Shown: in pieces, positions 23,711 to 39,710 of the stretch | Position numbering within the stretch: the first letter of the stretch is position 1 | Layout: each line of letters starts with the position of its first letter | Source: Bacteroidota bacterium | GTDB taxonomy: Bacteria; Bacteroidota; Bacteroidia; B-17B0; Aurantibacillaceae | Length of the DNA: 43,265 bases | Assembly (NCBI GenBank): GCA_021323535.1 | Contig: JAJONO010000038.1 | Span: forward strand, 1-43,265 | Direction: 5' to 3' | Notes under the pieces: model-generated | What the model saw: only the letters and a program-made list of their open reading frames with translations | The model's database searches: none | Told to the model about the DNA's origin: nothing | Program-made: the position numbers and the translations under genes

Positions 23711-23781
23711 AGCCGCAGATTTCACGGATTCCCACAGATCCATAATCTGCGTAATTTGTGTAATCTGTGTAATCTGTGGCT
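23711..23781. repeat. Intergenic inverted repeat built of 9-base units, before fcl
   Basis: The outer ends AGCCGCAGATT (23711-23721) and AATCTGTGGCT (23771-23781) are inverted copies with one mismatch. The right arm consists of four degenerate 9-base units of the form AATCTGTGT. The element fills the gmd-fcl gap and ends seven bases before the fcl ATG, so it lies in the fcl translation-initiation region. Confidence 0.8.
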
Positions 23782-23787
23782 AAAAAA

Positions 23788-24729
23788 ATGGAGCTTAATT
23801 CGAAAATATACATTGCCGGCCACAAAGGAATGGTAGGCTCTGCCATCCTGAGAAATCTCCAGCAAAAAGGATATAAAAATTTTGTACTTAAAAGTTCATC
23901 CGAACTCGATCTTAGAAATGCCCAGGCTGTTTCTGATTTTTTTGAGAAGGAGAAGCCTGAATATGTTTTTCTTGCCGCCGCGAAGGTAGGAGGTATTCAG
24001 GCCAATAACATTTACCGCGCCGAATTTCTGTATGATAATTTAATGATACAGAACAATGTGATTCATTCTGCTCACCTCAATAATGTGAAAAAGCTAATGT
24101 TCCTTGGTTCTTCCTGCATTTATCCTAAACTGGCCCCTCAACCTTTGAAGGAAGAATATCTGCTCAGCGGCTATCTTGAAGACACCAACGAACCTTACGC
24201 CATTGCTAAGATATGTGGAATAAAAATGTGCGAAAGTTATCATCGTCAGTACGGAAGCAATTTCATAAGTGTAATGCCAACGAATCTGTACGGACCAAAC
24301 GATAATTACAACCTTAACAATTCACACGTTCTTCCTGCCCTCATTCGCAAATTTCACGAGGCCAAAGAACAAAACGCACCTTCTGTTGAAATGTGGGGAA
24401 CAGGTTCGCCTCTCCGTGAATTTCTTCATGCCGATGACATGGCTGACGCCTGCGTTTACCTGATGTTAAATTACAACGGTCAGCAACATGTTAACATTGG
24501 AACCGGAACCGATCTCAGTATAAAAGATCTTGCATTACTCGTTAAGAAAATTGTTGGTTACACCGGCGAAATACAACATGACCTGAGCAAACCCGATGGC
24601 ACACCAAGAAAACTGATGGATGTAAGTTATCTTCATAGTCTTGGCTGGAAACATAAAATTGAACTGGAAGCCGGAATCCGATTGGTTTATGATGATTTTA
24701 AGAATAAACAAAACGTAAAGGTGTGGTAA
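23788..24729 (+). CDS. fcl: GDP-L-fucose synthase
   Basis: This bifunctional epimerase/reductase turns the Gmd product into GDP-L-fucose. The 313-aa sequence has GHKGMVG (11-17) for NADP, Ser108/Ser109 and Cys110 in GSSCIYP, and the Tyr137-x3-Lys141 pair in EPYAIAK. The ATG at 23788 gives [15 protein letters not shown] at 23776 would add four residues encoded by the repeat and is less likely. Its stop overlaps by a few bases the earliest possible start of the next reading frame. Confidence 0.96.
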
Positions 24730-24738
24730 TACCTGTAG

Positions 24739-24821
24739 ATCCAAGACGCAAGATCCAAGGCACAAGATTGAAGAAACCATTCGCTTCGCTTCTTGTTTCT
24801 TGGCTCTTGTTTCTTGGCTCT
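24739..24821. repeat. Inverted repeat of 14-base units that enters the next gene
   Basis: The left arm (24739-24775) holds two units of the form AGATCCAAGACGCA. The right arm (24790-24821) is the inverted counterpart with two units of the form TGTTTCTTGGCTCT. The spacer between the arms reads ACCATTCGCTTCGC. The right arm lies inside the reading frame of the RemB/Wzi-like gene and encodes the hydrophobic core of its signal peptide. Confidence 0.8.
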
Positions 24822-26318
24822 CCGATAAAAGGTCAATTCTACAACCTGCCCAACGAATACTCCTTCTCGCTTCTTACCGAAAGAAAATTAGCAGCTAAAG
24901 ATTCAGCTACACATACAGGGTTAAAACCCTACATTCATTTCTTTTCCGATAAATATGTTCATGTTGCCGATACGCATCGTATTTTTAAATTCATTGTAGA
25001 TGATCCAGCTCTTGACATTGCTTTTATTAAGCATGTGATCACCATTAAACCGCGCAATCAGAATTTTAAACTTACGCTTGATCCCCTTCTGAATTTTGAA
25101 CTTGGCAGCGATTATTATAACGACACTGTAAAAACACAAACGCAAACCAATACCAGGGGCTTTATTGGCTGCGGCTATGTTGGCGATAAAGTATATTTTG
25201 AAACCATGTTCGCCGAATCACAAAGTTTTTTTCCGCAATATTTAAAAAAATCGTCCCTTGCAACAGGTATTATTCCCGGACAAGGCAGATGGAAAGCTTT
25301 TGAAGGAAATGGATTTGATTACGCTTTTTCTTCGGGCTTTGTTTCTTATCAGCCAGTAAAAAATCTGAATCTGCAATTCGGACATGGAAAACAAAAAATC
25401 GGGTATGGTTACAGGTCCTTATTGTTAAGTGATAATTCTTTTAATTACCCTTATGTAAAATTTACCCAGCAATGGTGGAAGGGCAGAATTCAATACAGCA
25501 ACATTTACGCGTTGTTAATGAACCTTGAACCAGCAACAGCAATTCCTGTTCCCAATACCGAACGCTTGTTTCAGAAGAAAGCAGCTTCGTTTCAGTATTT
25601 AAGTGTAAATCCTGTGAAATTTCTAAACATAGGTTTATTTCAGGGAATGATCTGGCAGGCGGCCGACAAAAAGAACAGGCAACACCTGCACTGGCAATAT
25701 TTTAATCCCGTTATTTTCACCAATCTTCCTGAGTATGGCCTCAACAATCAAAACAACATCCTTGTCGGAGGGGATATCCGATTTAAAATTACCAATAAAC
25801 TAAATGTGTATGGCCAGCTAATGGCCGATGATCTTAGTGGGATAAAGAGCACAGGCAATGGCTTTGGTTACCAGGCAGGAATAAATTATTTTGACGCGCT
25901 TGGCTTAAAAAATCTTTTTCTACAGGCTGAATACAACTCAGTAAACGAAGGAAGTTATACCGGCCCCATAGGCGCCACTACCAACCAATCATATTCTCAT
26001 TACAGTCAATATTTAGCTTATACTCCCGGCCATGGAAATGAATTCATCTTCATGGCAAATTATAAAATAAAACGTCTGCATTTCAACGCGAGTTATAATT
26101 ACCAGGATGTTCCTCGTGATGGAGATTATTATTACAATAACCAGATTATAGGTCTTAGAACAGGTTTTTTGCTTAATCCTTCATACAATCTTCAGCTTTC
26201 TCTTGGCTATACACATCGTGTCCAGAATTTTCCTAATTTTAAGAACCTGAGCAATGAGACAAATTTTATTTATCTTGGTCTCAGAACTAATTTTTATAAT
26301 ATTTATTCCGACTTTTAA
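24768..26318 (+). CDS. Outer-membrane beta-barrel protein, RemB/Wzi-like
   Basis: This 516-aa protein is predicted to be a beta-barrel, from alternating amphipathic strands and aromatic-ended segments throughout. Blocks such as GFIGCGYVGDKVYFETMFAESQ (in two parts), IPGQGRWK and LQFGHGKQKIGYGYRSLLLSDN (in two parts) resemble the gliding-motility protein RemB and Wzi-type capsule proteins. There is no in-frame ATG near the 5' end. TTG at 24768, preceded by AAGG, gives a textbook signal peptide starting MKKPF and ending near SPIKGQ. A GTG at 24723 would overlap fcl and add 15 charged residues. The next gene starts on the base after its stop. Confidence 0.72.
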   Translation: MKKPFASLLVSWLLFLGSPIKGQFYNLPNEYSFSLLTERKLAAKDSATHTGLKPYIHFFSDKYVHVADTHRIFKFIVDDPALDIAFIKHVITIKPRNQNFKLTLDPLLNFELGSDYYNDTVKTQTQTNTRGFIGCGYVGDKVYFETMFAESQSFFPQYLKKSSLATGIIPGQGRWKAFEGNGFDYAFSSGFVSYQPVKNLNLQFGHGKQKIGYGYRSLLLSDNSFNYPYVKFTQQWWKGRIQYSNIYALLMNLEPATAIPVPNTERLFQKKAASFQYLSVNPVKFLNIGLFQGMIWQAADKKNRQHLHWQYFNPVIFTNLPEYGLNNQNNILVGGDIRFKITNKLNVYGQLMADDLSGIKSTGNGFGYQAGINYFDALGLKNLFLQAEYNSVNEGSYTGPIGATTNQSYSHYSQYLAYTPGHGNEFIFMANYKIKRLHFNASYNYQDVPRDGDYYYNNQIIGLRTGFLLNPSYNLQLSLGYTHRVQNFPNFKNLSNETNFIYLGLRTNFYNIYSDF

Positions 26319-36851: not shown

Positions 36852-36888
36852 TAATTTGCAAAAGATTGACTATCAATATAGTTGAGAA

Positions 36889-36919
36889 TTTTCAAATTAC
36901 AGGAAAATTCCTATTTTTG
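36889..36919 (+). promoter_or_regulatory. Candidate promoter of the pyrophosphatase gene
   Basis: TATTTTTG at 36912-36919 fits TAnnTTTG, with a TTTT -33 region 19 bases upstream. The ATG at 36942 follows after about 22 bases. It is divergent from the flavoprotein promoter in the same 130-base intergenic region. Confidence 0.5.
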
Positions 36920-36941
36920 CACCCCTATAATTGAAATTTAT

Positions 36942-39710
36942 ATGAACGAAAGTGTTATTTATTTAGTCCCTGTTCTTGGGATAATCGGATTGATAGTAAT
37001 GGCCATTAAATCGGCCTGGGTTAGTAAACAGGATGCAGGAGAAAAGAACATGCAGGAATTAGCAGGTTATATTGCTGATGGCGCAATGGCTTTCTTAAAA
37101 GCCGAATGGAAAGTGTTAAGTATTTTTGTTGTGTTTGCAGCAGCTTTACTCGCTTATTCAGGAACAATTCATGAAATTAATGGTAAGCATATCCACTCCA
37201 GCTGGATTATTTCCATAGCATTTATTATTGGTGCCGTGTTTTCTGCAACAGCAGGATATATTGGTATGAAAGTGGCTACCAAAGCTAACGTTCGTACAAC
37301 TCAGGCTGCGCGTACCAGTTTAAAACAGGCATTAAAAGTTTCTTTTACCGGTGGAACCGTGATGGGACTTGGTGTAGCAGGTTTAGCTGTATTAGGACTG
37401 GGCGGTTTATTCATTGCTTTTCTTGCCATCTTTGCCGGCCTTGGTGAAAATCAGGTAAAGACCGCGATTGAGGTATTAACCGGTTTCTCTTTAGGAGCTG
37501 AATCAATTGCGTTATTTGCACGTGTTGGTGGTGGTATTTATACCAAAGCTGCCGATGTTGGAGCTGACTTAGTGGGAAAAGTTGAAGCGGGAATTCCTGA
37601 AGACGATGTTCGTAACCCTGCTACTATTGCTGATAATGTAGGTGATAATGTAGGTGACGTTGCCGGTATGGGGGCCGACTTATTTGGTTCATACGTGGCA
37701 ACAATTCTTGCTACCATGGTATTGGGCCAGGAAATTGTTGTGGCTGATAAATTCGGCGGAATGTCGCCAATTCTTTTACCAATGGTTATCTGCGGTTTAG
37801 GAATTCTTTTCTCTATTGTTGGAACATGGTTCGTGACTATTAAAGATGAAAAATCAAATGTTCAGAATGCATTGAACATGGGTAACTGGTCATCGATGAT
37901 ACTTACCGTTATTGCTTCTTATTTTGTTGTTGATTATATGTTACCTGATGGAGAGATCACATTAAGAAGCTTCCATTTCACAAAAATGGGCGTGTTCATG
38001 GCTATTTTAGTTGGAACCGTTGTAGGCGCCATCATGAGTATCATTACTGAATATTATACAGCTATGGGTAAAAAACCTGTATTGTCTATCATTCAACAAT
38101 CTTCTACCGGTCATGCTACAAACATCATTGGAGGTTTATCAGTAGGTATGAAATCTACCGTTATTCCTATCCTTACTTTAGCAGGTGGTATTATGGGTTC
38201 TTATTATTTTGCAGGATTATACGGTGTGGCTATCGCAGCTGCGGGTATGATGGCAACAACAGCTATGCAATTAGCAATTGACGCTTTCGGACCAATTGCT
38301 GATAACGCGGGTGGTATTGCAGAAATGAGCCAGTTACCTCCGGAAGTACGTGAGCGTACCGATAACTTAGATGCTGTAGGTAACACAACCGCTGCTACAG
38401 GAAAAGGATTCGCTATTGCTTCGGCCGCATTAACTTCATTAGCTTTATTTGCAGCCTTTGTTGGAATTGCAGGAATTGACGCTATTAACATTTACAAAGC
38501 ACCAGTATTAGCGGGTTTATTTGTAGGTGGAATGATTCCGTTTATTTTCTCTGCACTTTGTATCCAGGCTGTTGGTAAAGCGGCAATGGACATGGTTCAG
38601 GAAGTTCGTCGCCAGTTCCGTGAAATTCCTGGAATTATGGAATACAAAGCAAAACCTGAATACGAAAAATGCGTTGCTATTTCAACCAAGGCTTCTATCC
38701 GCGAAATGATGATGCCGGGCGCTATTGCTTTAATTACGCCTGTAATTGTAGGATTTGTTTTTGGTCCTGAAGTATTAGGAGGTTTATTAGCAGGTGTTAC
38801 CGTATCGGGTGTGTTAATGGGAATTTTCCAGAGCAATGCCGGTGGTGCATGGGACAATGCAAAAAAATCATTCGAAAAAGGTGTTGTTATTAACGGAGAA
38901 ACATTCTACAAAAAATCGGAACCACACAAAGCATCTGTTACAGGTGATACAGTAGGTGACCCTTTCAAAGATACTTCTGGTCCTTCTATGAACATCCTCA
39001 TTAAATTAATGAGTATCGTTTCATTGGTAATTGCGCCTTACATTGCGTTGAATACAGCAGGCGGACATGATACTGTTGTAACTCAGGAAGTAATCAAATT
39101 AAACATTAACGGAACCGAATATTCTTTCAACTCAAAAGCACAGGCTGATAGCGCGATGGCTGCTATGACTGCTGCAAAAGATGTGAGTGAATTAAAAGGA
39201 AATTTCAAAGTTGACGGGGCTCACAGTTCAGTTGCATTCAGCATTAAACACATTGTAACAGATACACGTGGTACCATTAACATTGACAGCGGTTTTGTAA
39301 ACCTTGATAACGCTAACGGTCCTAAGATTTTTGTTCAGATGGATATGACCAGCTTAAACACTCAAAATTCATACCGCGACGATCATTTAAAGAAAGCTGA
39401 TTTCTTTGATGTTGAGAAAAACAAAAAAGCAAGCTTTACTGCTACTACAGTTGAGAAAAATCCTGAGCCAGGTAAATATGCTTACTTAGCAAAAGGAACT
39501 TTAACTATGAAAGGTATTACCAAAGACGCGGTTGTGAAATTTAACTACATTGGATTATCGCCACAGGAGTGGGAAGGTAAAAAAACAGATGTGGCAGGTT
39601 TTGAAGGTGAAACTGTTATTGACAGAACACAATTTAACATTGGCGAAGGCGGTGGATTAGGAAACGATGTAAGAATTGAAATTACATTAGAAGCAGGTCA
39701 GGCCAAATAA
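36942..39710 (+). CDS. hppA: Membrane-bound ion-translocating pyrophosphatase fused to a YceI domain
   Basis: The first 710 residues or so are a membrane pyrophosphatase that couples PPi hydrolysis to Na+ or H+ export. They hold the catalytic loop [11 protein letters not shown] (205-215), [17 protein letters not shown] (231-247) and about 16 membrane segments. Ala484 and Gly487 in [10 protein letters not shown] point to the K+-dependent class. After the last membrane helix (about 686-708) and a 45-residue linker comes a YceI-like lipid-binding domain (753-922: [28 protein letters not shown]). In family structures the C-terminus is periplasmic, which suits YceI. ATG at 36942 is chosen; the 20 codons upstream overlap the promoter. 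Confidence 0.9.

Follow-up and report, generated by a model that had tools for sequence, protein, structure and literature searches.

The window analysed here comprises positions 1-43,265 of contig JAJONO010000038.1 of a Bacteroidota bacterium (assembly GCA_021323535.1). Between fcl, the gene for GDP-L-fucose synthase, and a gene for a predicted outer-membrane beta-barrel, it carries an imperfect inverted repeat composed of (CAAGANN)n, a short loop and (NNTCTTG)n. Our data suggest that a dispersed heptad repeat very probably took over the signal peptide of the barrel gene, that frame-independent coding by the repeat eased the takeover, and that selection sorts its two strands. The features of the locus are as follows.

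23776-24729, + strand: fcl, GDP-L-fucose synthase, directly upstream (NCBIfam NF047922, 503.7 bits, cut-off 500)
24737-24767, + strand: left arm, CAAGA units (run 24742-24767 with at most one mismatch; non-coding if TTG 24768 is the start)
24768-24770, + strand: likeliest start codon, TTG, judged from the lack of an earlier in-frame ATG and from the starts of relatives
24789-24821, + strand: right arm, TCTTG units (run 24791-24816), encoding the core LLVSWLLFLG
24737-24821, no strand assigned: whole inverted repeat, an imperfect hairpin by RNA folding
24768-24833, + strand: putative signal peptide of 22 residues, LKKPFASLLVSWLLFLGSPIKG, with the first residue read as M and cleavage predicted before Q
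24834-26318, + strand: mature outer-membrane beta-barrel, by predicted structure and fold matches (no Pfam or NCBIfam family)

The initial annotation had described an inverted repeat of 14-base units that starts after fcl and runs into the next reading frame. We recovered this repeat, with inverted arms at 24751-24777 and 24795-24821 and direct 14-nt duplications at 24737-24764 and 24791-24818. The true unit, however, is 7 nt, CAAGANN in the left arm and NNTCTTG in the right, and the 14-nt unit is two of these. The RNA of 24726-24840 folds at -39 kcal/mol (z -5.4; none of 200 shuffles equalled it), with about one mismatch per seven bases in the stem of the 24737-24821 hairpin.

The open reading frame (ORF) of the barrel gene spans 24723-26318. 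As had been noted before, no in-frame ATG lies near its 5' end, the first being codon 162 at 25206. Three ATG, GTG or TTG codons fall within the first 40 codons: GTG 24723, which overlaps the end of fcl (stop at 24729), TTG 24768 in the left arm, and TTG 24807 within the hydrophobic core. This survey agrees with the earlier proposal that TTG 24768 is the only sensible start, which most likely holds. Four relatives (G021, G019, G006 and G007) start with ATG directly past the left arm and two others (G014 and L095) have TTG-AAA-AAA at the equivalent position, by eye; these starts at the same place support TTG 24768 by analogy. The right arm encodes LLVSWLLFLG, the signal core that the initial annotation had read there, and stops just short of SPIKG and the following Q. 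The mature start Q-(F/Y)-Y is conserved among orthologues and reads Q-F-Y in the window gene, and cleavage probably occurs before this Q. The 22-residue peptide would act as a Sec signal.

The barrel protein has no Pfam or NCBIfam match and no sequence relative of solved structure at E up to 1. Its AlphaFold2 model is a beta-barrel (pLDDT 68, pTM 0.71), and the best PDB fold matches are outer-membrane barrels (porins and exporters), including Wzi (2ynk, Z 17.4 over 335 residues). Wzi, named in the earlier label RemB/Wzi-like, is thus among the matches but is not singled out: the OccD/OccK and AlgE barrels score equally. As an outer-membrane barrel, the product needs a signal peptide. The neighbours of the barrel gene are gmd, fcl and a Glycos_transf_4 sugar-phosphate transferase. 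One promoter-like site, near 24632-24659, is at chance level.

We scored 85 orthologue 5' ends of the window gene, representing 64 distinct proteins. In orthologues that lack the repeat, the position before the conserved Q-[FY]-Y is taken by signal peptides unrelated to that of the window gene; a signal peptide shared with the window gene in the absence of the repeat, which would have argued against an origin in the repeat, was not observed. Because the repeat-free orthologues own signal peptides too, an older one was replaced and secretion was not created anew. The comparison thus supports a probable replacement of an older, unrelated signal peptide by the heptad repeat, with the cleavage site and the mature protein kept. 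A significant score for both arms (P < 0.02 for each arm) was obtained in 8 of the 64 proteins, namely two clades plus L107, under a threshold that counts decayed copies such as those of G003 and G016 as absent. These eight tips require five changes on the 64-tip tree, which does not demonstrate a single ancestral insertion at the fcl-barrel site.

The heptad is dispersed through the genome of this bacterium (G000, 5.3 Mb). With the pattern read backwards as a control, three exact units were found 25+36 times (61) versus 0+0, three units with one mismatch 70+75 times (145) versus 4+2 (6), and three units with two mismatches 122+133 times versus 33+27. The 14-base unit, whose recurrence in the genome had been proposed as a check, is thus present genome-wide in its heptad form, far above the control. 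We read 33 G000 loci (all exact sites, plus the one-mismatch sites among the matches listed) and 20 of 23 further sites among the matches listed, which with the window make 54 loci. They hold 71 runs, of which just 18 coincide with a called ORF even though coding sequence makes up 85% of the bases; the reversed control matches there once. At the sites read, runs have 3-17 units in phase, mismatches allowed, and so constitute tandem heptanucleotide repeats. The 58 heptad elements comprise 11 with two strong arms, 2 with a weak second arm and 45 with a single arm.

Moreover, 25 of 40 genomes of the genus match with at most one mismatch, very unevenly: 158 matches in G011, 145 in G000, 93 in G017, 85 in G010, and 0-41 in the other 36. 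Exact matches occur in 42 of 395 sampled genomes of the phylum and in 25 of 171 genera. In a set of 114 loci from 13 genomes (34 from G000 and 80 from 12 others, among the matches listed), 128 of 152 runs are intergenic; 44 + 43 of these lie between co-directional genes, 22 between convergent and 10 between divergent genes, and 9 at contig or locus ends.

Two observations on the searches stand apart. An array of about 280 nt at G041:C1:1700790-1701071 (inside L228), made up largely of minus-strand CAAGA units, far exceeds the usual 3-10 units. The reversed control itself, AGAACNN repeated, has many matches in certain genomes from other families (G336 with 33+18, G285 with 9+23, G108 with 19) and is also listed for G217, G093 and G203; it is probably another heptad family.

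Since its length is not divisible by 3, the unit yields one and the same peptide cycle whichever frame is read. Three units of the TCTTG strand form the seven codons TCT TGN NTC TTG NNT CTT GNN, which give S-[CW or stop]-[FLIV]-L-x-L-[VADG] and can hold a lipobox, L-[VAG]-S-C; the CAAGA strand gives Q-[DE]-x-R-x-K-x. In 39 real intergenic arms of at least 26 nt, Kyte-Doolittle (KD) hydropathy over all frames is 1.69 for the TCTTG strand and -2.52 for the CAAGA strand, versus -0.14 for random genomic 48-mers, and 93% of CAAGA-strand frames and 61% of TCTTG-strand frames are stop-free. A lipobox occurs in 57% of frames of simulated 48-mers versus 6% after shuffling, 18% in the shorter real arms and 1% in random DNA. 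Simulated period-7 arrays score KD 1.80, 2.15 and 2.14 in frames 0, 1 and 2, and period-6 arrays 0.40, 2.75 and 3.66.

Among the G000 loci read, six genes including the window gene have TCTTG-sense heptads as the core of their signal peptide. The other five are a TPR lipoprotein (L058, ...LLVFCVLCLVSC followed by KS), a TPR_6 lipoprotein (L065, MKHSPIISCFLFPGSCLLLLVSCFLSLASC followed by SN), an FKBP lipoprotein (L069, ...FWFLFLGSCFLALISC followed by GP), a 300-aa protein (L321, MPRKTLRTLLFLGSWLLALGSFGQ) and a LysM protein (L328, ...LSCLLVLVSCFYFGQ). All five are single-armed, and the arrays of L321 and L328 depend on units with TCCTG variants. The array terminates exactly on the S-C codons of the lipobox in the three lipoproteins, and shortly before the predicted cleavage site in the window gene, L321 and L328. 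Two further heptad genes were found in G019, encoding an Amidase_3 protein (L166) and a LysM protein (L167) that resembles the L328 protein. Judged from sequence, the best 12-residue core reaches KD 2.1-3.1 in eight genes, and the lipobox Cys is present in 3 of 3 lipoproteins.

To compare codons, we drew random synonymous codons with the peptide held fixed and scored the best match to three units, in four G000 genes (window gene, L058, L065 and L069) and two G019 genes (L166 and L167). The observed match is 15/15 in all six (P 0.0001-0.0027 each). For the lipoproteins, 42 same-genus orthologue rows were available, of which 5 were skipped (lipobox not located, or contig edge) and 37 scored; the G010 row of L065, cut by a contig end, was left out. 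None of the 37 orthologues of L058, L065 and L069 reaches 13/15 (the highest is 12), against 15/15 for G000 in all three. Read by eye, these orthologues have ordinary signal peptides unlike those of G000, with the lipobox Cys in common. In G003 the L058 orthologue (L288 and its neighbour, G003:C38) is broken up close to a stretch of N in the assembly. L321 has matches in 9 of 23 genomes only; its same-genus homologues are distant (at most 39% identity), and those that were readable show no heptads. The L328 heptads are common to G006, G007, G012 and G019; by eye, none are seen in the orthologues of G001, G002, G004, G009 and G014, and G003 retains a single-unit trace.

The two strands meet different fates inside genes. 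In G000, 6 of 7 runs in the TCTTG sense are N-terminal, against none of 9 in the CAAGA sense (P 0.0009); counted by gene, the figures are 6/7 and 0/6 (P 0.005). Pooled with other genomes, they are 8/11 versus 0/14 by run (P 0.00015) and 8/11 versus 0/11 by gene (P 0.001), a count that is not fully independent because L328 and L167 look like orthologues. Position and strand labels were assigned by reading. The counts omit five TCTTG runs that start before the called ORF (L175, L189, L190, L192 and L229) and look to sit upstream of a later ATG; they also omit the window's left arm and window positions 37029-37047, and with these two restored the G000 comparison is 6/7 versus 1/11 (P 0.0025). The latter site, in an ORF of 942 aa (36882-39710), matches three degenerate CAAGA/CAGGA units, probably by chance.

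Exceptions to the N-terminal rule in the TCTTG sense are L060 (C-terminal), L213 (internal) and a CDP-alcohol phosphatidyltransferase (L172), in which the run is probably a membrane segment. Among the CAAGA-sense runs, those of a lipoyl E2 enzyme and LigD lie between domains, and that of a DUF4175 protein falls in a hydrophilic tract; other genomes have such runs within EPSP synthase, a LysA-like decarboxylase and leucyl-tRNA synthetase. A further CAAGA-sense run accounts for the hydrophilic C-terminal tail, KQETGNRKQETTS, of Lgt (L324:2120-3016, + strand), which attaches the lipid to lipoproteins.

The heptad family is dispersed mainly between genes, as single arms or hairpins, and one two-armed copy stands between fcl and the barrel gene, with the likely start in its left arm and the signal core encoded by its right arm. 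We propose that this copy very probably replaced the older signal peptide and left the cleavage site and the mature protein unchanged. The TCTTG strand, hydrophobic in every frame and able to hold a lipobox, would then be kept by selection at signal peptides, and the CAAGA strand, hydrophilic, basic and nearly stop-free, in linkers and tails. We infer both this role of selection in strand fate and the route by which copies arrive. The exaptation of a non-coding repeat put forward in the initial annotation is upheld by the genome-wide unit, the repeat-free orthologues and the five additional genes, but an older signal peptide was replaced and none was gained from nothing. More broadly, the intergenic heptad may in some Bacteroidia be a standing supply of frame-independent signal peptides that repeatedly replace ancestral ones throughout genome and clade: a TCTTG strand at the start of any gene for a secreted protein would give a hydrophobic core, frequently with a lipobox, and its opposite strand disordered linkers. 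We advance this generalization only tentatively.

Several observations weigh against this proposal. The repeat has decayed in the sister genome G003 and in G016 (combined P 0.07 and 0.03), which implies a history of several gains or losses; heptad copies thus appear to decay after replacing a signal peptide. Simulated 48-nt TCTTG frames are stop-free in 47% of cases, no better than random DNA (49%). Shuffled TCTTG arms are nearly as hydrophobic as simulated 48-nt arms (KD 1.79 versus 2.03), so that composition supplies most of the hydropathy and the 7-nt order mainly adds the lipobox. The five single-armed G000 genes need not share an origin with the two-armed window copy, and the start at TTG 24768 is itself assigned from codon survey and relatives. 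Finally, a codon test scored by chain length is weak, with P 0.02 for the window gene and 0.07 for L058.

This last result, together with the strong limits that a peptide sets on its DNA, is what favours regarding the heptad match as an incidental result of the leucine, valine and serine codons that ordinary signal peptides use. We regard that explanation as extremely unlikely, given that none of the 37 same-genus orthologues reaches 13/15, against 15/15 in the six tested genes, and that the window's left arm is non-coding with TTG 24768 as the start. A more serious rival to insertion, at least for the lipoproteins, is that the heptads grew in place by tandem duplication of lipobox codons, for example GTT TCT TGT (V-S-C), the intergenic copies being separate products of the same slippage. 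The exact ending of all three lipoprotein arrays on the S-C codons fits such growth, as do the repeat-free L065 orthologues of G001 and G002, which spell GTTTCTTGT at the lipobox, and the non-dispersed 7-nt arrays in signal peptides of some relatives, such as TTTTTCA in L087, whose three genome matches are all one site. Signal-peptide codons, however, cannot seed the complementary CAAGA arm that precedes the likely start codon in the window, and the same unit recurs in 42 of 395 phylum genomes with 128 of 152 runs intergenic. Local growth is therefore possible but, in our judgement, doubtful.

It is also quite unlikely that the repeat is primarily a regulatory hairpin over the initiation region, acting in translation control or attenuation, with an incidental coding fit. 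The G000 fold is strong, with the TTG partly in the stem, and some two-armed orthologues beat their shuffles moderately. Across the seven other two-armed orthologues, though, the fold is uneven: over the 140 nt before the mature start, z is -2.7 in L074, -1.6 in G006, -1.4 in G021 and L107, -1.1 in G019, -0.9 in L077 and +1.2 in G007, compared with -4.4 in G000. Over 110 nt, where the left arm may be cut, two or three of the seven reach z -2 or below (G006 -3.2, G021 -2.7). No terminator-like site was found in the repeat, and the Rfam search of the repeat gave no family at gathering score, two miRNA matches being far under the cut-off. The five other heptad genes, moreover, are single-armed and have no hairpin. 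The suggestion that the hairpin regulates translation thus finds little support in the orthologue folds and in these genes, and takeover of the signal peptide by the dispersed heptad remains our preferred reading.

Single precedents for such coding use exist. Yersinia RU-2 (YPAL) lies in the signal peptide of YPO1552, and the signal peptides of similar proteins from other genera are unrelated (Delihas 2007, PMC2759123); RU-2 is a 168-bp element with its own reading frame and one main example, whereas the heptad is a 7-nt unit that can code in all frames, with six such genes found in G000. Rickettsia palindromic elements (RPE; Ogata 2000, as reviewed in PMC2229807) occur in frame inside conserved protein genes and also between genes. 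Likewise, open frames run through heptads in leucyl-tRNA synthetase, EPSP synthase, the LysA-like decarboxylase, LigD and the linkers of the lipoyl E2 enzyme. The heptad is nevertheless not an RPE by size or stem: RPE are 105-146-bp stem-loops, while heptad runs measure 19-117 nt, are mostly single-armed and have strand-specific fates.

TAACTGA heptamers are sporadic intergenic 7-nt direct repeats, found in a few Bacteroidetes too and often near start codons, but they have another unit, and the paper never uses the term signal peptide (MacGregor 2015, PMC4679880). Repetitive extragenic palindromic (REP) sequences are short, multi-copy, mostly extragenic and able to pair (PMC12306157 and PMC3733652, in part); they are palindromes that seldom overlap genes (PMC12306157, in part), whereas only 11 of 58 heptad elements have two strong arms and the 45 single-armed ones lack the palindromic form of REP and REPIN elements. 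Among the open-access papers listed we found no published description of the heptad family or of repeat-derived, frame-independent signal peptides; we class the heptad with the coding-competent intergenic repeats.

A unit length that is not a multiple of three offers a mechanical reason why non-coding repeats become parts of proteins. With the same peptide cycle in all frames, strand rather than frame decides the fate of the repeat. Several cases in one genome, with repeat-free orthologues for comparison, make signal-peptide turnover directly testable. The findings also suggest that arrays at gene starts may be clipped by gene callers that favour ATG.

Arrays of 7-nt units with other sequences were seen as well. 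At the fcl-barrel site, L087, L107, L111, L120 and L127 have such arrays in their signal peptides, as does the L328 orthologue of G008 (L339); the units across these six loci are TTTTTCA, TCTTYTA, TTTTTAC, TTTTTAA and ACTTTTG. As a general trait of the barrel-gene signal peptide, period 7 is weak, lag 7 being best in 7 of 86 and lag 14 in 18 of 86 among 11 lags. TTTTTCA gave 18 matches across 13 genomes (0-5 in each; reversed control 11) and WCTTTTR 29 across 39 (0-4 in each; control 15), a slight excess at most. Neither is clearly dispersed, and the period-7 signal peptides of L087, L107, L111 and G008 are therefore not assignable to a dispersed family.
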